32,665 nucleotides of DNA from a virus: IMG/VR virus record IMGVR_UViG_3300047095_000701, positions 1 through 32,665 of that record; one strand, 5' to 3'. The position numbers were made by a program, and so were the translations under genes. The notes under the pieces were generated by a model. It was not told the DNA's origin and searched no databases. It worked only from the letters and a program-made list of their open reading frames with translations. This document shows positions 2,496-26,380 of the stretch, piece by piece. How positions within the stretch are numbered: the stretch's first letter is position 1; every line of letters starts with the position of its first letter.

Positions 2496-3619
2496 GCTTG
2501 TATAATCCCTTTCGTTGGAGCAAATTTAAGAGTTGTTGCAGAAATTGCGACACCTAATTCTTGTACCACATAATTTGCAGTAGTAGGAATCGCAGTATCT
2601 GCCAGTCCGGCAGTAGTCGATAGATAATAGGTGCTACCAAGACTAAGACTATTTAGATAACTATTTCCACCACCAGTAAGTACAGTAACTGTATCACTTG
2701 TATTATAATTTGCGGATACATAGCCAGTAGCTGCGAGACTAATTGTAGTAGCGGATGCTTTACGAACTTTCAATGCACCTGAGTTATTATAAACATTAAC
2801 TACATTACCAGCAGTTAGAGACTCATCTGCGACGCCGATAACTGGCAATGCATAGGATAGCATAGTTGGGCTACCCCACGGAGAGCTTGTTGCATCAGTT
2901 TTCGGGCCATAGATTTCCAAGGTACTAACATTTATGTACCAATCATTCACTCCACCGATTGTATCTGCTGGTGCTCCGGCTTCATTTAGTACTGCGTAGC
3001 CTCGTTGCCCTTGGATTCCTTGTACGCCTTGAACTCCTTGAATTCCTTGTGGGCCTTGCGCGCCTTCAATTCCTTGTGCTCCAGTAGCACCTGTAGCACC
3101 GGTAGCACCAATAAGTGCGATAGGTGTACCCCAGATCGAAGTTTTTGGTCCATAGAGGAAATAAGTTACTGTATCGAGGTAGAAATCACCTACGACACCT
3201 GCGCCTGCTGAGGGTACTCCGACGCCATTAAGGATAGTATTACCTGCTGTACCTGTAGTTCCTTGGATACCTTGAGGGCCGGTAGGGCCTGTAGCACCTG
3301 TAGCGCCGGTGGCACCTGCACTACCTGTAGCTCCAGTATCGCCTTTTGCACCTTGAATGATAGAGATCCCATCGCTCCAGCCAACGACTGCTTTTGGGCC
3401 GTAGAGTTTATATTCGGCGAGGTCGATATAGAAGTCATCAACTTCGCCGGTTTCAAATGTAGGTGCTCCGTTACCATGCAATAGTGCGGAGCCTCTTGAG
3501 CCTTGCGAGCCTTGAACGCCTTGCAGGCCCTGTTGTCCTTGAATTCCTTGAGTGCCCTGAACACCTTGAACACCTTGAATTCCTTGTGGGCCGATATAAT
3601 CGTCATTAATAATACCCAT
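2492..3619 (-). CDS. collagen-like tail fibre protein with GDFY..LYGPK modules
   Basis: A 375-residue fibre. Three Gly-X-Y blocks (residues 10-43, 90-126 and 171-207) should form collagen-type triple helices. Each is followed by a small domain with the pattern G(D/N)(F/W)Y(I/L)(D/N)...(L/I)YGPK...W (about 60-84, 142-167, 222-253). From about residue 262 a beta-rich C-terminal domain begins (GVADESLTAGNVVNVYNNSG) and ends LGVAISATTLKFAPTKGIIQ, similar to C-terminal domains of other phage collagen-like proteins. ATG at 3619 follows an AGAGG ribosome site. It probably forms a trimeric rod in the tail tip or side fibre. Tandem Gly-X-Y DNA is prone to copy-number change, so rod length may vary between relatives. 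Confidence 0.8.
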   Translation of the reverse strand: MGIINDDYIGPQGIQGVQGVQGTQGIQGQQGLQGVQGSQGSRGSALLHGNGAPTFETGEVDDFYIDLAEYKLYGPKAVVGWSDGISIIQGAKGDTGATGSAGATGATGATGPTGPQGIQGTTGTAGNTILNGVGVPSAGAGVVGDFYLDTVTYFLYGPKTSIWGTPIALIGATGATGATGAQGIEGAQGPQGIQGVQGVQGIQGQRGYAVLNEAGAPADTIGGVNDWYINVSTLEIYGPKTDATSSPWGSPTMLSYALPVIGVADESLTAGNVVNVYNNSGALKVRKASATTISLAATGYVSANYNTSDTVTVLTGGGNSYLNSLSLGSTYYLSTTAGLADTAIPTTANYVVQELGVAISATTLKFAPTKGIIQA

Positions 3620-3628
3620 TTCGACCTC

Positions 3629-5143
3629 TTACAAAACTCGGTTATAATACCATTGCTGATCGTAATAACATGTATACATATTACCCGACTCGCCGATTAA
3701 AAGTCCTCTAGCATTTATGTATGCATGAGAGGAGTAACTTCGTACATACCCATCTGTATTAGATTGGATATAGATATCTGTCATAGGCTCAATAAGATCT
3801 AATTTTTCAGGAGCATTTTGTAAAGTTTGTAATGGGGATGACCCAAATGAAGGAGATAGACCTAATATAGGTAAATCAGATGCTCCACAACTATATACAT
3901 CTCCGCTTGTGGTTAATAACATAACCCCTTTAGTCGGAGCATACGTAGTAGGAGTATATGTTGCAGGTACATATGTATATTGTCTAATAACCTGACATTT
4001 TGTTACCGGCAGAGCAAGTATTAAGGTTGGAGTATCTATATTTGTAGTACTTCCTACCCAAAATCCTCCCCATTTATATGCGTATAATGTCGATTTCTCA
4101 ATACCTACTACATACGGATATTGATACCACTTACTAGGATCATCTAAGCTCTGATGGAACGTCCCTACATGAATAGATTCGTACAGCCCTGAAACAAGGG
4201 TCCAATCTTCTATAATTGTTGCTCCTCCGGGAATACCTAACTGACTGTACTGATTATCACCTTTAACCCATAATTCCCCCGATTCAAGCAATACGTATCT
4301 AGAAATTCTATCATCTGTAGCTGAATCAACTATAATACATTTTTTTATGGTAGAACTAAATTCCTTATCAACATCAAATATGGATTTAGAGGACGCGTAG
4401 GATGTCTCGCTTAATTTTGATCCTGATACTACAGCTGCATGGCTATAGCCTATAATCACATCATCAATTGGTTGAGGATACTGATAAACTGGATGAAACG
4501 TATATGACGCAAATGAAGATTTATTAAGCCCATTTAGCTTTAATGTTGTTGTATATGTATTAGCTGAGGTATAAAAATATAGAATCCCTTCTTTAAGTAC
4601 AAATATATTAAGACTTGTATTTACCGCTACGGACCCATAACTAGTCCCCGCCCAAAAATTATCTACATTAGTGAGCACATCCACAACACCTCTATCTATC
4701 CGAAGAGCTTTATCGGAGGTTAGGGTGACCAGATATTGATACGAGTCTATTGAGTATCCGTTAGAGTACAGAAAATATTTCTGTATTGGGTTACTAGCTT
4801 TATAGATTGTGACCCACTTATTTTCATGGATACTTTTTATGGTAGCGTCATTGAATAGTCTACATACTCCACGTTGTGTAACCGAATACTTACTCGAAAC
4901 GCTTACTTTATCTCCAGCTGTATTAGCGTAATTGCTATCATTATCTATAATATAATTTTTCGTAGCTACGTCGGATAATACGCATTTTTTTATATCGATA
5001 TTATACACAAATGAATCGCGTAGTGTCGACGCTATTGGAATCGTATTGTACGAGTTTAGCCCTCGCAACGTACTATCGACGTGTGATCGGGTGGTGGTAT
5101 CGACAATTTCAGATTGAAGGTTGCTAAAATCAGAATTAATCAA
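3629..5143 (-). CDS. RCC1/BLIP-II-like beta-propeller tip protein (second copy)
   Basis: A 504-residue protein starting at a TTG (5143-5141) that overlaps the end of the preceding gene by 8 bp; AGG lies about 11 bases upstream and no ATG is available near the 5' end. Repeated blade-like segments such as LLESGELWVKGDNQYSQLGI and MLLTTSGDVYSCGA match the 'sG.lw.wG.n...qLG' pattern of RCC1/BLIP-II propellers. Blades are degenerate and interspersed with other beta-rich sequence. RCC1-type repeats usually form 6-7-bladed propellers that bind proteins. Here the likely role is host contact at the tail tip. The neighbouring gene at 5136-6812 has the same type of repeat, so the two probably arose by duplication or form a hetero-assembly. 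Function is inferred. Confidence 0.65.
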   Translation of the reverse strand: MINSDFSNLQSEIVDTTTRSHVDSTLRGLNSYNTIPIASTLRDSFVYNIDIKKCVLSDVATKNYIIDNDSNYANTAGDKVSVSSKYSVTQRGVCRLFNDATIKSIHENKWVTIYKASNPIQKYFLYSNGYSIDSYQYLVTLTSDKALRIDRGVVDVLTNVDNFWAGTSYGSVAVNTSLNIFVLKEGILYFYTSANTYTTTLKLNGLNKSSFASYTFHPVYQYPQPIDDVIIGYSHAAVVSGSKLSETSYASSKSIFDVDKEFSSTIKKCIIVDSATDDRISRYVLLESGELWVKGDNQYSQLGIPGGATIIEDWTLVSGLYESIHVGTFHQSLDDPSKWYQYPYVVGIEKSTLYAYKWGGFWVGSTTNIDTPTLILALPVTKCQVIRQYTYVPATYTPTTYAPTKGVMLLTTSGDVYSCGASDLPILGLSPSFGSSPLQTLQNAPEKLDLIEPMTDIYIQSNTDGYVRSYSSHAYINARGLLIGESGNMYTCYYDQQWYYNRVL

Positions 5144-6812
5144 TAGTGTCTACCTGATTAAACATAGGTTGAGACACATTAGCTATACTACCTATACCTA
5201 ATGAATTTAATATACTCACTCCCCGTGCATAAAGTTTGCCACCTGAGGTCAGTACAAACGTACGTAAATACTGATCATAGGACGACATTTCTGTTGCTCC
5301 GGGATACTTATGTATGTAGCATCTAACATCCACTATAGTTTCTGATGCAGATAAGCCATATAACGGAATCAGACTAAAGTATTGCCCAGCACTTATATCA
5401 TTATATAAAATTGTACTATTATTTAGAATTACATATGTAGCGTACGTAGTATAGTTACTATATTGAATGTATGATCGTGTAGAAACTAGAGCTACAGCAT
5501 CGGTAATTTGAGATATAGTGCCTGATAAATCCTGCTTATAACAAGCAACTGGAGTAGTACGCTGAGTCAAACTTCCATCGGCTAATTGGTACGAGTTATT
5601 ACCTCCCCAGCCATAGACATCTCCTGTGGTAGTTACTCCGAGAACAGAAATTTGTGCCCCAACATTAAAGACTTCAATATCAGTAAATGCATATCCAGTT
5701 AGGTGAGTGAATTCGCTTAAATCAGTTGTATTACCAAGCCCAAAGGATCCGTTAGTATTTACGCCTCGTACCCACAATTCGCCATTAGTTAGTAGTACAA
5801 ATTCTCCTCCAGTATGACTGTAACAAAACTTCCCAATAGGGGATAAGAAAGTATGTGATAATTCAAAGCTTGTTGTATATGTAGCTCCAGCAACATATAA
5901 TTCATAATTTGTATATAAATACGTACGTTGACCGGTACTAACAATCTTTTGAATACCTTCAACAAAAAATTCGAGCGCGGTAAAAGCGGTTAGGCTGGAT
6001 GTATTCCCAGTACCTAACGACCCGGCATAATTATCCCCCTTTACGTAAATCGCCTCGTCGGTCAGTGCAAAGTAATTTACATATGAAGCATTCCATCCAC
6101 CAATATAGACATTGGAGGCATTACTAACATCCAAATTTTTCGTCATTACTGGAGCTATAGATGAATTATATACAACATTTTCCCAGAGATTTCCATCAAC
6201 ATCTATAGCAAAAGTTTGCTTAGCACTCGGAATCACTTTAGCTATATCGATAATATCATCGGACCTAAATATCATATATGATGGATTTGCGCTACCTATA
6301 GATGTTGAAGTAGCATAGACTCCATCAGATCTGGTTAAATAATAACCGTTAACCTCTGTATACGCACCAAACGTAACTACATCATTTGTAGTAGTTACGT
6401 AGCACATAGAGCGTACTGGGGGAAAATACGTATCTTCAGGCAATTTCAGCGCTTTTGTTGACGTCCCTTCAATCCACGCAGCAACTCCATCTTTCATCCC
6501 AATGATTTGTCCGGGTGTCCCAGGAATTAATTTTGAGATTGGGATTGAGTTATCAGCGAGCTCAGCTCCGTTTATATCTACTCCTACTAGTACGGATGAA
6601 GTATCGAGTGTGCCTAGTCTGATCCACGACGCATTGTCACCGCTACGGATATATAGAAAATTATCAGTCAAGTTTGCCCAGAACATATAAGGCATCATCG
6701 TTGGGGGCTCTGTCTCCCCCGCATTCAATGTATTTGTGGCAAGGAGCATCTCATTTAACTTCGGTATTGTATACTCGGTCAATGAGCTCGGAAGCAGGTA
6801 ATTTGATTGCAT
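5136..6812 (-). CDS. RCC1/BLIP-II-like beta-propeller tip protein (first copy)
   Basis: A 558-residue protein with ATG at 6812 overlapping the stop of the J-like gene (TAATG). Residues about 1-135 are a phage fibre-type N-terminus containing ISKLIPGTPGQIIGMKDGVA, a motif common just before distal fibre domains. The rest carries several RCC1-like blades: IYVKGDNYAGSLGTGNTSS, LLTNGELWVRGVNTNGSFGL, TTTGDVYGWGGNNSYQLADG and LTSGGKLYARGVSILNSLGI. These are clear 'G.ly..G.n..g.LG.G' units. The N-terminal part probably docks to the tip and the propeller faces the host. No enzyme motif is visible. RCC1 repeats are best known from eukaryotic nuclear proteins and bacterial effectors, so their use as a phage tip module is notable. 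Confidence 0.75.
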   Translation of the reverse strand: MQSNYLLPSSLTEYTIPKLNEMLLATNTLNAGETEPPTMMPYMFWANLTDNFLYIRSGDNASWIRLGTLDTSSVLVGVDINGAELADNSIPISKLIPGTPGQIIGMKDGVAAWIEGTSTKALKLPEDTYFPPVRSMCYVTTTNDVVTFGAYTEVNGYYLTRSDGVYATSTSIGSANPSYMIFRSDDIIDIAKVIPSAKQTFAIDVDGNLWENVVYNSSIAPVMTKNLDVSNASNVYIGGWNASYVNYFALTDEAIYVKGDNYAGSLGTGNTSSLTAFTALEFFVEGIQKIVSTGQRTYLYTNYELYVAGATYTTSFELSHTFLSPIGKFCYSHTGGEFVLLTNGELWVRGVNTNGSFGLGNTTDLSEFTHLTGYAFTDIEVFNVGAQISVLGVTTTGDVYGWGGNNSYQLADGSLTQRTTPVACYKQDLSGTISQITDAVALVSTRSYIQYSNYTTYATYVILNNSTILYNDISAGQYFSLIPLYGLSASETIVDVRCYIHKYPGATEMSSYDQYLRTFVLTSGGKLYARGVSILNSLGIGSIANVSQPMFNQVDTID

Positions 6813-16228: not shown

Positions 16229-19200
16229 CTATTGTCTATATTGATTCAAAGCACCACCCTTACGCATCTCCTCCGCGACAGTCTTTAATACTACGCCACG
16301 AAGAGTTTCACTTAAGGATTTCATCATCGTTTCCTGCTTATCAGGTCCATTTGACTGATCCCCTTCAGTTTCGTTACTAACATTTACTGTGATCGTTATT
16401 GAATTGTTTGATATACTAGTACCTGATGCTCTAACCCCAAGCCGTCCGGAGCTATCTCTAGCTAATGGCATAATAGCTTCAGGCCCAGCTTCGCCCATAA
16501 CTCCTATTGGAAATTGTGTAGCCCCATTAACAATCCCGTTAGTAAAGGTCCCACCACCAGCGAACGCCATCACATTGCCACTATCAAAGATCTTACCTAA
16601 AGCTGCGTGGACGCCTAGTGACGCTCCTCCAGCATCTGGAGTAACTATAGCACTATTATTAGGCGCTGTTAGCCCACTACCGGAAACTGCGTTCCCTACG
16701 ATCACATTAGCTATTGCAAAAATCGCTTTTTTCATTCCAATCGCAGCCATCGTAGAGATATAATCGGCTACGATTTTAGATAAGACTTTATGTACGGAGA
16801 CTGCAAAATCCTTAAGTCTAAAGGTTCCAGCAGTTATAAACTGTTCAAGGCTTGAGCTAAGCGTGTCCTGAATGCCTGTTAATGCATCTACAAACGCTTC
16901 GCCTACAGTTAGCATTGAAGCTGCTTGCTCTTGAGCGGATTTTTTCAGGGCACCGATAAAGGTACGATCAGCTTCATATACTTCCCGCATTTTCCCTTGC
17001 AGACTATCCATTAGACCGATCTGGGTAGTTAACTCACTAATACTAGATTCCGGCATCCCGTTAGCTATATACGCAGCTCGTTGCTCTTGCAGCTTAGATT
17101 TTCTAATATCCAGCCGAGCCAAATTTTGATCCTCGGAAGTCATTCCCCGAGAATTCACGTCGAATTCAAACTCCTTAATTTCATCTCTTATGGAGTCTGT
17201 CGTTTTCATCAACGACATAGTTATTTTCTGCGATAATTCCTCAAGACCGGATGCGAACCCTTCTCCGGCTAACTCAACCGCTCTATTGTACTGCTCGATA
17301 ACATCTGGATTCAGTCTATCTTTGCTGGCATTAAATGCTCCGGTCAGGTTATCCATATTTTTAGCAAAAGAATCTTTTATTTTCTGCATCTCGATGATAT
17401 CGTCACCGATAGAGAGCAACTTAGGATTATTTTTAATCATTTGGAAGGTCTGATTACTAGCTTCCGCCGACGTAATTGCTTTACTTGCGTCGGAGCTAAT
17501 TGCATTAATCATACTGAGCATATCGATATTAGCAGCAAGATCAATCAATTTTTGTTTATCAGCATTACTAAATTTCTTAGCTTCGGAATTAGTAGTTAAG
17601 GTGGATTGCAATTTCGCGGATACTTTACCAAAACTTTTGTTGATTTCTAATTGTATATTCTCTAATTCTTGCATCGAAGATTCAAGATTCGAACTTAAAT
17701 TAGAAAATAGACTCTCATACTTCGACGCAATCGGATCCTTCTTTGTGGTACCTCCAGCGGACCGCTTAGCATATTGCGAGGCATCTTCCTTATCTCTCAT
17801 TTCGCCTACCTCAACATTTCTCTTTAATCTATCTTCAATAGATTTATATTCAGATCGTGATAACTTTGCGGAATTAGCATCCATATAAAAATACTCTAAC
17901 GTTTTTTCAGCCTCACCTTTATATACATTAAGCGCATCTCCCTTTTTCCGCTGCATCCAAGCCTGATTACTATGATATTGAGTCATAGCCTCCTGCATTC
18001 TTCCAGCATAATCTACAGCGCTTATAGCGCTCAGCGCGTTGGTTAATTGCTGCTGAGCATCATTTGCAACTTGCTCAGCACTATTCTGAATTTTTATAAC
18101 TGTTTCCGCCAATGCGCTAATAAGCCCCATACCTGATCTCGCTAATTTGGTAGCATAAGCAGCATTATCCATCATCTTTTTTACTAAATTTTGGTATACA
18201 GCTTCTGTATTCCCTCCCTTTTTTATACCAGCAGCTATATTATCTAAATCTGCCATCATTTCATCTGCTCGCAAACTAGTGCGTTCAGCCTCTCTAGTCA
18301 TAATCATATTAGATTTTAAGATATCATCTACGGTTAAATTAAGCGTAGTTTCAGCTACACCACGGGCTATTTCCGCCCGTGCAGCTGACATCCCTTTTTC
18401 ACGAAGTTTCAAATGCACCGGATCTGATAGCTTATCCAAGATATCATTTATATTCCATTCTTTAATAGCTTTGTATACTTCTACATCATCTTTAACAGCT
18501 TCTAACGCTTCTTGATGCACCTTATTAGCTATAGATACCAGCGTGCGATAATCGCTCAGCGCCGTTGCCTTTGAGTATGAGTCGGCTGTTGCTTCTAACA
18601 CTCCTTTATTAATCTCAGCCATTGACGCTAAACTAGATACGCCTGCGGTGAGTCTCTTCATCATTTCTGAAGGGATCGCTGTAAATTCTTTAGCTCGCTC
18701 TAAATACATACTCTGGGTCGTAGCCGATTCAGTTACGGTAGTAGCTACTTTTTGCGCAGTAGTAGCTACGTTTTCAGTAAAACTTTCAGCACTTTCTTTA
18801 TACTGTCTCGACGATGTTTCTACCATTTGAGTCCAAGTAGTAGGTCTAGTGAGGAAATCAATTACCTGCCCTGCTCCGGAATGTAGTGCTTGGAATCCCG
18901 TTAAATCTCCTACGGATCCTCTACTAGGATTAGCAAATTCACTTGTGTTCCAAGCCTGTTGATTTCGAGTATAGTCAATTGATTTAGTTCGTTCAGCAGT
19001 ATCAAAAAAACTAGTCACTGCCACTGATGCTTTAGCAGCCATCGCAACTGTATCAGATATGAATTGGATAAATGTAGCTAAAAAGTTGAATATATTCTCA
19101 AACGATCTCAAAGCATCGTGGGTAAGATTACCTTGATTATCAATAAATAATTTATTTAATTTATCGAAAAAAGTAATGATCGGAGTAGACAACTTTTCAA

Positions 19201-25255: not shown

Positions 25256-25339
25256 TTAATCCCCCGCACGAGCTATCGCGGTTAATAATTTATTTGCAGC
25301 CCTTGTTGATCTGCCTCGATACCATGCATCCTTAATCAT
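25256..25339 (-). CDS. 27-codon in-frame extension or micro-gene after the gp10-like gene
   Basis: Directly after the TAA of the gp10-like gene (25342-25340) comes ATG in the same frame, then 27 sense codons (MIKDAWYRGRSTRAANKLLT, then AIARAGD) and TAA at 25258-25256, two bases before the terminator gene's ATG. No Shine-Dalgarno precedes this ATG. It may be a micro-gene translated by stop/restart coupling, a C-terminal tail reached by TAA readthrough, or a tail recently cut off by a nonsense mutation. Otherwise the operon would contain an 83-base unused gap, which would be unusual here. Confidence 0.4.
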   Translation of the reverse strand: MIKDAWYRGRSTRAANKLLTAIARAGD

Positions 25340-25951
25340 TTATTTTCTATACTTTACGCCACTCATTTCTGAAAATTCTATACCATACTTGAACTTGGCT
25401 AAAACCTTATTTACAGCTTTCGTTAATATATGCCTAGGTATAAATGCAGGAGGATTTGCTCCACCAAACTCTAAATATTGAGCAATAGGGTATACCTTCC
25501 CAGATTTTGCACGCCTTACCTTTGTGTTGCGAATAACAAACCTACGAGATTTTCCGTACCGCGCTGCAAAATCCGCAGGTAAATCAGCGGCTCGTATCGC
25601 CCCATGCTTTGTAACCACCTCCCATAACTTATGATACTCCCCAGTATAATATGGGTACTTATCATAATTCTGCTGTGTAGTTACCTCAATTAAAACTTCT
25701 TGTGCAATCCTCGCGGATTGAAATTGAGCTGCCATATCCAGAACAGTAAATAATTCGTTACTAAAATTGTTGGAATTGGCTTCTAAATTCGTAATAAATG
25801 TTGACGCATTATCCTTGGGCTTTTGAGCAGTCCTAAACCCTCCAGTTACAGATGTCAGCCCAGCAGCAATATTTAAGGTGGCACGATTCCATGCGCCTGA
25901 CCCATAACCTCTCCCACTGACTGATACACTACGTATAGAATTTGCGATAAT
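25340..25951 (-). CDS. HK97 gp10-like neck/tail-completion protein with probable ATT start
   Basis: The ATG-initiated form (25735) gives 131 residues, but the frame is open another 72 codons upstream and that stretch is protein-like: RSVSVSGRGYGSGAWNRATL, later FITNLEANSNNFSNELFTVL. No ATG, GTG or TTG occurs in it. The first plausible codon is ATT at 25951-25949, just after tandem stops TAG TAA. This gives 203 residues. The C-terminal part (IAQYLEFGGANPPAFIPRHI) matches gp10-like proteins, which contain 'EfG....PaFi' near their end and act at the head-tail joint. The neighbouring terminator supports the role. A ribosome site and hairpin upstream are described separately. The shorter ATG form is possible but has no good ribosome site and would leave about 215 bp of coding-like sequence unexplained. 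Confidence 0.6.
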   Translation of the reverse strand: MIANSIRSVSVSGRGYGSGAWNRATLNIAAGLTSVTGGFRTAQKPKDNASTFITNLEANSNNFSNELFTVLDMAAQFQSARIAQEVLIEVTTQQNYDKYPYYTGEYHKLWEVVTKHGAIRAADLPADFAARYGKSRRFVIRNTKVRRAKSGKVYPIAQYLEFGGANPPAFIPRHILTKAVNKVLAKFKYGIEFSEMSGVKYRK

Positions 25952-25957
25952 AAGTTA

Positions 25958-25990
25958 CTATCCGCCCTCTACGAGCGGATAGCCCTCCCC
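25958..25990 (-). promoter_or_regulatory. Shine-Dalgarno plus 8-bp hairpin before ATT start
   Basis: On the minus strand GGGGAGGG (25990-25983) is followed immediately by CTATCCGC (25982-25975), a 9-base loop, and GCGGATAG (25965-25958): a perfect 8-bp stem. Six bases later (TAACTT) is the ATT at 25951. If the hairpin folds, the effective distance from the ribosome site to ATT becomes normal. A hairpin bridging a Shine-Dalgarno and start codon is known from T4 gene 38. The stem also contains the tandem in-frame stops. An alternative reading is a weak terminator or processing site after the XhlA-like gene. Confidence 0.5.
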
Positions 25991-26202
25991 TAAATAGGCT
26001 TGCCTACAAAATATGCCCACGTTACAGCTAATCCAGATCCAATGATGGCTATCATCTTTAAGAACGCTAATGTCCCCTTTAACATTAACATGATAGACTT
26101 TAGCTCCTCAATGTCCGTACTGATCTTGGCTACCTTATCCTCGTACGGACAATTATCACTGCACCTACGAGCCTCAATCTTACTGAGCTCCTGTGGCGCC
26201 AT
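25990..26202 (-). CDS. XhlA-like small membrane protein
   Basis: A 70-residue protein with an N-terminal amphipathic/coiled region (KVAKISTDIEELKSIMLMLK, about 23-42) and one C-terminal membrane segment (LKMIAIIGSGLAVTWAYFVG, about 48-67). This shape matches haemolysin XhlA-type proteins, which work with holins. Its ATG has a strong GGAGG ribosome site and lies inside the end of the holin-like gene (23-bp overlap), so the two are translationally linked. Two cysteines at 14 and 18 sit in the N-terminal part. It could also be a spanin-like or anti-holin protein; the membrane topology is visible but the exact role is inferred. Confidence 0.6.
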   Translation of the reverse strand: MAPQELSKIEARRCSDNCPYEDKVAKISTDIEELKSIMLMLKGTLAFLKMIAIIGSGLAVTWAYFVGKPI

Positions 26203-26380
26203 TCTTGCCTCCTACCTCAGGCAATAAAATACTCGCTGCACTTGCTAAAGATACTACTACCTGCCCAATAACATCTACCGCACCCGGAGGTGCACCAAAT
26301 AAAATGGCTAATGCCGATACCCCAGCCCACGTCGAAGGTTCCTTCAATCTACCCACAATAGACCTCACAATTCCCCACAT
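26180..26380 (-). CDS. holin-like protein, two membrane segments
   Basis: A 66-residue protein with two hydrophobic helices (about 17-31, TWAGVSALAILFGAPP; and about 35-54, VDVIGQVVVSLASAASILLP) joined by a Gly-Ala-Pro-Pro-Gly turn, and an N-terminal KEPSTWAG motif common in small phage holins. This size and topology fits class II holins, which form membrane lesions releasing the endolysin. The ATG overlaps the preceding head-tail gene's stop (TAATG). No other lysis gene is adjacent except the XhlA-like partner; the only wall hydrolase lies at 2076-2495. Confidence 0.65.
   Translation of the reverse strand: MWGIVRSIVGRLKEPSTWAGVSALAILFGAPPGAVDVIGQVVVSLASAASILLPEVGGKNGATGAQ

Follow-up and report, generated by a model that had tools for sequence, protein, structure and literature searches.

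Two genes of bacteriophage T4, 25 and 38, are named in a T4 review as having split ribosome-binding sites, in which a hairpin shortens an over-long distance between the Shine-Dalgarno (SD) sequence and the start codon (PMC3014915). Mutations which weaken the hairpin lower translation (PMC3014915). The initial annotation of the gene described here had referred to gene 38 as a precedent, to which gene 25 can be added. Hairpins located within the 40 nt before a start codon are generally described as inhibitory to translation (PMC4631060).

Natural AUU, AUA, or AUC starts have been reported in infC, pcnB, and the Staphylococcus aureus genes cvfC1 and ccpN (PMC13009471, PMC5472188). The AUU/AUA starts of S. 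aureus are accompanied by extended SD motifs and reach approximately 10% of AUG in poor medium (PMC13009471), and IF3 represses starts of this type, including the ATT of its own gene in Escherichia coli (PMC5472188, PMC2268962). What these cellular genes have in common is a near-cognate start combined with a strong SD, from which weak and IF3-sensitive expression is expected; unlike the gene described here, they have apparently ordinary linear SD spacing. T4 gene 26 offers an AUU start within a phage virion gene, in which respect it resembles the present gene, but its start is internal and it is not known to have a bridging hairpin. No report of a bridged SD joined to an AUU start was found in the open-licence PMC literature, a scope outside which most papers in subscription journals lie. 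Each of the two devices is known separately and, within that scope, their combination in this gene appears to be new, as had been suggested when it was first noticed.

Genomic Context of the Neck-Region Gene

The window, that is, the whole stretch of DNA analyzed, is a 32,665-base IMG/VR virus record which encodes a siphophage structural module on its minus strand. Genes for terminase, portal, scaffold, major capsid, head-tail adaptor (Ad1), and head closure (Hc1) are followed on this strand by two small ORFs, the neck-region gene, tail terminator, tail tube, chaperone, and tail genes. A capsid search of viral contigs gave 11 loci, among which a single close relative was found (IMGVR_UViG_3300034061_006095, 4,297 bases, hereafter L007). 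Its proteins are 90% (capsid), 82% (Ad1), 85% (Hc1), and 81% (tail terminator) identical to those of the window. The orthologue of the neck-region protein, with 213 aa encoded at 3410-4051, is 42-46% identical, as if this protein were evolving faster than its neighbors or had been exchanged. Coordinates of all features are listed in table 1.

Table 1. Features of the neck-region locus (window coordinates)
Feature	Coordinates	Strand	Remarks
Head-tail neck-region gene (Neck1/gp10 slot)	25340..25951	-	203 codons counted from ATT; flanked by Hc1 and tail terminator
Upstream 70-aa ORF	25990..26202	-	Stop TAG (25992-25990) touches the SD; ORF absent from L007
Shine-Dalgarno GGGGAGGG	25983..25990	-	GGAGG at 25988-25984
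Bridging hairpin, 5' arm	25973..25982	-	Pairs retained in L007 (3378-3387)
Bridging hairpin, loop	25968..25972	-	Predicted fold
Bridging hairpin, 3' arm	25958..25967	-	Terminal TAG closes the gene frame, also in L007; pairs retained in L007 (3394-3403)
Spacer TAACTT, 6 nt	25952..25957	-	AATTTT in L007
Proposed AUU start codon	25949..25951	-	Position matches ATG 3410 of L007
Out-of-frame 10-codon ORF (ATG 25905)	25873..25905	-	Behind GGGAGAGG; rival start requiring a frameshift
First in-frame ATG	starts at 25735	-	Rejected as start: no SD; inside the stretch conserved in L007

The two small minus-strand ORFs that separate head closure from the neck-region gene (25990-26202 and 26180-26380) overlap each other, contain hydrophobic stretches as judged by eye, and matched no family in the libraries searched. 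L007 retains the second of them, which is membrane-like (72% identity over 57 residues), and lacks the first. On the other side of the neck-region gene, a 27-codon ORF (25256-25339, minus strand) starts right after the stop codon and fills the gap before the tail terminator gene; it has no match in L007.

Coding Potential Upstream of the First ATG

The neck-region frame on the minus strand opens after TAG TAA (25960-25955), followed by CTT and ATT (25951-25949), and from this ATT 203 open codons extend to the stop at 25340. ATG, GTG, and TTG are all absent from the 72 codons that precede position 25735. In the gene frame this stretch scores as coding, like the genes of this phage: 0.213 per codon, as against -0.395 and -0.695 in the other frames, the reference for 72-codon windows of known genes being 0.196 +/- 0.064. 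The first 15 codons taken alone are ambiguous (0.096 vs. -0.013 and -0.614). The codon scores and coordinates thus bear out the initial annotation, which had described a protein-like extension devoid of canonical starts that opens after TAG TAA, has ATT at 25951 as its first plausible start, and fills an otherwise empty gap of 254 bp (25989-25736).

Other in-frame near-cognate codons are ATC 25948, ATA 25936, ATT 25870, CTG 25858, ATT 25795, and CTG 25741, and no usable SD was seen by eye in the 20 nt before each of these candidates downstream of ATT 25951. Judging from the sequence, ATC 25948 may serve as an alternative start, as it lies 3 nt past the ATT and would share the bridged SD. Readthrough from the upstream 70-aa ORF was rejected as it arrives in the wrong frame and meets additional stops. 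Elsewhere in the window, a 504-aa ORF (3629-5143, minus strand) without a match in PHROGs has a TTG start which overlaps the end of the previous gene.

SD Sequence and Hairpin

The SD sequence GGGGAGGG is located 31 nt ahead of the ATT, and its first G doubles as the last base of the TAG of the upstream ORF. Its duplex with the anti-SD of an assumed 16S tail is predicted at -11.7 kcal/mol. Counted from GGAGG, the distance to the start is 32 nt in both the window and L007, too far for direct use. The perfect 8-bp stem between SD and ATT was confirmed along with the 6 bases that it leaves, and we found that it lengthens to 10 pairs including one T-G, with an 11th pair (G.U) possible. A stem of 10-11 bp leaves 6-7 nt, which is a workable spacing.

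The excised 29-nt hairpin has a predicted energy of -18.6 kcal/mol (z = -5.35) that none of 200 shuffles equaled; the stability of the surrounding 63-nt stretch stands out less (z = -2.94; 2 of 200 shuffles did as well). To judge how often such an arrangement might occur by chance, a 40-Mb random sequence with the nearest-neighbor composition of the window was used as control. A perfect stem of at least 8 bp followed GGAGG at 24 of 43,069 occurrences, and in 11 of the 24 a start-like codon was present 5-7 nt further on. GGAGG occurs 71 times in the window (60 on the gene strand and 11 on the other), and the site described here is the only one with such a stem.

Folding predictions suggested that GGAGG is partly paired in the window, with an unpaired probability of 0.26-0.43 at four of its five bases and a cost of approximately 3 kcal/mol for opening the SD, and that the AUG of L007 is mostly paired (unpaired probability 0.11 and 0.05 at two bases). 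According to these models, the partly paired SD and the mostly paired AUG neither help nor exclude initiation across the hairpin.

Conservation of the Site in a Relative

The region before the neck-region gene of L007 has the same layout: a stop codon 3 nt from the SD, AGGAGG, a hairpin, 6 nt, and ATG. Seven of the ten stem pairs are unchanged between the two phages, two (pairs 4 and 10) differ in both bases, pair 9 differs in one (T-G vs. T-A), and none is broken. Downstream of the 3' end of the stem, both sequences align without a gap, which places the ATT under the ATG. The start in L007 is well fixed because TAG (3401-3403) closes the frame at the end of the stem and ATG 3410 is the sole ATG, GTG, or TTG before codon 68. 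The window lacks a canonical start where coding begins and has AUU at the start position of its homologue. In this one relative, the SD, the paired stem, the length of the spacer, and the position of the start are all conserved; the paired changes support the hairpin, and the comparison as a whole supports the bridge and, with the ATG of L007 at the same place, the earlier proposal that the ATT is a start behind a hairpin-bridged SD. As the 70-aa ORF is missing from L007, the initiation module has remained next to the gene through a change of upstream neighbor.

It is improbable that the covarying hairpin is instead a separate element, such as a weak terminator or a processing or repressor site, with the start still near 25951 but no bridging. 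Both hairpins pass a loose terminator pattern, and upstream hairpins often inhibit translation (PMC4631060). However, terminator-like sites showed no excess over shuffles (2 found vs. 3.8 expected; 3 found vs. 3.0 expected), the T tracts are interrupted, and an SD 32 nt away would be unworkably distant in both phages unless the intervening sequence is folded.

At the protein level, window residues 26-193 and L007 residues 13-191 share 42% identity. None of 2,000 shuffles matched the alignment of window residues 1-72 with L007 residues 1-60, whose similarity is carried mainly by NFSNELFTVLD/NFSKELFTALD, located just upstream of ATG 25735. Similarity to L007 therefore runs across and upstream of this ATG, so that it is not the start. 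The possibility raised in the initial annotation that homologues begin there did not hold for L007, whose protein extends upstream. A start at ATG 25735 with 72 untranslated codons could be considered as it is the first in-frame ATG and would give 131 aa, within the 121-137 aa of five annotated proteins of the Neck1 slot. On the other hand, it has no SD, it would cut the conserved stretch, and it would place a P-x3-G-x5-W motif at residue 28 rather than at 40-45 as in those five proteins. Such a start appears already contradicted by L007, and its probability is practically nil.

Closer to the N-terminus, window residues 1-62 gave no significant alignment with L007 residues 1-43 (573 of 2,000 shuffles as good); in the comparison with L007, 186 of 2,000 shuffles were as good for window residues 20-62 and 886 of 2,000 for residues 1-20 of both. 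Thus, the exact start cannot be located from protein similarity but is fixed by the DNA. ATG 25905, out of frame behind GGGAGAGG, could be a start if followed by a frameshift, or if a normal start at this place is masked by an indel error. The spacing of its SD is good; an SD of this strength precedes only 9 of the 477 ATGs that lie out of frame in other genes (any SD-like match: 44 of 477), and by eye the distance to the first similar residues resembles that in L007. Nevertheless, its frame hits TAA after ten codons, no slippery site or homopolymer was seen there by eye, and upstream codons score, though weakly, as coding in the gene frame. Moreover, L007 starts behind the hairpin instead, and by eye the ten residues resemble nothing in L007. 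We consider this start quite improbable.

In the bypass of T4 gene 60, matched codons flank a hairpin-bearing gap which begins with a stop codon. A similar event here would take off at the last codon of the upstream ORF (ATT 25995-25993), pass over 41 nt including the hairpin, and resume at ATT 25951, these matching codons lying around a stop and a hairpin. ATT accounts for 313 of 10,239 codons, so that a matching codon is expected by chance in approximately 3% of cases, and L007 has GAA TAA and ATG at the corresponding places and no codon match. Fusion of the 70-aa ORF to the neck protein would make little sense, and the strong SD would be left unexplained; SD and spacing fit initiation better, and bypass seems extremely improbable.

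The AUU is not shared by L007, which has ATG. It is known from one metagenomic record, and no second record of the window phage was found. The main rival, although an unlikely one, is that the bridged site is real and used but the phage start is ATG, the T being a one-base consensus error or a minority variant. In its favor are the ATG at the corresponding position of L007, the single record, and the rarity of AUU starts, of which infC is a rare example and pcnB a second chromosomal case in E. coli (PMC5472188, PMC13009471). No frame-breaking change was observed among the other listed gene-sized frames of the window, which argues against poor assembly but not against one substitution. In addition, a viable AUU requires a strong SD, which is present.

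Proposed Mechanism and Comparison with Known Systems

Taken together, the neck-region gene is probably translated from AUU 25951 via a hairpin-bridged SD. The sequence is best read as a conserved split ribosome-binding site of the kind known from T4 genes 25 and 38, combined in the window with AUU as the start codon. The 30S subunit would bind by pairing to GGGGAGGG, where the upstream ORF ends, and a 10-11-bp hairpin would fold away the 25-27 nt between SD and start codon. The working distance from GGAGG to the start would decrease from 32 to 7 nt, or to 5-6 nt with the additional G.U pair (in L007, to 6 nt), bringing AUU into the P site, where initiator tRNA would start. If ribosomes use this bridged site, the AUU would be read by initiator Met-tRNA and discriminated by IF3, presumably with a lower yield than AUG. 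Ribosomes finishing the upstream ORF may also be handed on to the site because its stop touches the SD (3 nt apart in L007).

This arrangement shares with T4 genes 25 and 38 a strong distant SD and a hairpin which removes the excess (27 to 11 and 22 to 5 nt in T4; 32 to 6-7 nt here), as well as conservation of the structure among relatives, here a single one. The T4 genes are virion genes, as is the present one. The differences lie in the phage type and gene, the longer stem, and the AUU of the window (AUG in L007), and the present case is based on sequence. Several of infC, pcnB, cvfC1, and ccpN are conserved as near-cognate, whereas the relative of the window gene has ATG. It is likely that two known devices, a hairpin-bridged SD and an AUU start, have been joined in a siphophage virion gene far from T4; the hairpin would have pre-existed in the family, the change from AUG to AUU would have drifted or been selected, and synthesis of the neck protein would be weak and IF3-sensitive.

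The presence of a covarying hairpin of this kind in the neck gene of a siphophage suggests more than one origin of the device, and bridged sites can be searched for systematically as a stop codon, SD, hairpin, and start. Should the AUU prove genuine, near-cognate starts can be served by a bridged SD, and the window and L007 would form a natural pair, AUU versus AUG behind nearly the same hairpin, in which the shares of start codon and folded spacer could be separated. Gene callers restricted to ATG, GTG, and TTG would remove 72 residues from the neck-region protein.

Identity of the Neck-Region Protein

The initial annotation had called the product gp10-like. Gene order is in agreement with this name: apart from the two small ORFs, the gene lies between Hc1 (phrog_161) and tail terminator (phrog_179), the same slot as in Xp15. 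Two motifs also bear on the name, both drawn from the five Neck1-slot proteins themselves and chosen after inspection. P-x3-G-x5-W is present in all five of these proteins, and P-x5-E-x-G in four, the fifth having one extra residue. The window protein contains both in this order, which none of 200,000 shuffles reproduced; L007 contains P-x5-E-x-G and, of the first motif, only SG-x5-W.

Other analyses did not confirm the name. The window protein matched no family in PHROGs or Pfam, and the only family match of the L007 protein was phrog_27412, of unknown function (E = 0.21). Comparison with the five Neck1-slot proteins by hhalign gave a probability of 0.1%, both profiles being shallow, and a PDB profile search returned no match. 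Structure prediction reached a mean pLDDT of 38.7, so the model was too poor for a fold search, and a predicted helix (63-93) spanning ATG 25735 was given no weight. Thus, the Neck1/gp10 identity rests on gene order and two post hoc motifs.

Searches for Further Cases

Neither the window DNA nor the window or L007 proteins matched a collection of phages, in which Hc1 found four weak records, and an Rfam search gave no match. Scans of viral contigs with the neck-region protein and tail tube found nothing; entries closely similar to the window may be missing from the material covered by such scans. Scans of the same contigs with the tail terminator, a two-member alignment, the hairpin pattern, an Hc1 alignment, and the L007 protein returned the L007 contig only. 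Among genome contigs, a first scan had no match and a later one revealed one remote capsid relative (34%; L019).

A scan for the SD-hairpin-start arrangement followed by an open frame of 50 codons covered 17 sequences (the window and L002-L017; 189,723 bases), leaving out L019 and the duplicates L001 and L018, the latter being the same contig as L007. Five distinct sites were detected, including the two orthologues. The three others, ATC at 9308 of L002, CTG at 1393 of L006, and ATT at 17223 on the plus strand of the window, are near-cognate codons and coincide with no annotated or assigned gene start. The arrangement was also sought, and not found, in the gap before the Neck1-slot gene of Acinetobacter phage HHU4 (L004), which is filled by other hairpin repeats: two near-identical tandem hairpin-like repeats of approximately 70 bases at about 6567-6740. 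A further hairpin, of 12 pairs and with a short T run after it, is located in L007 within the start of the Ad1 coding region (2356-2384).
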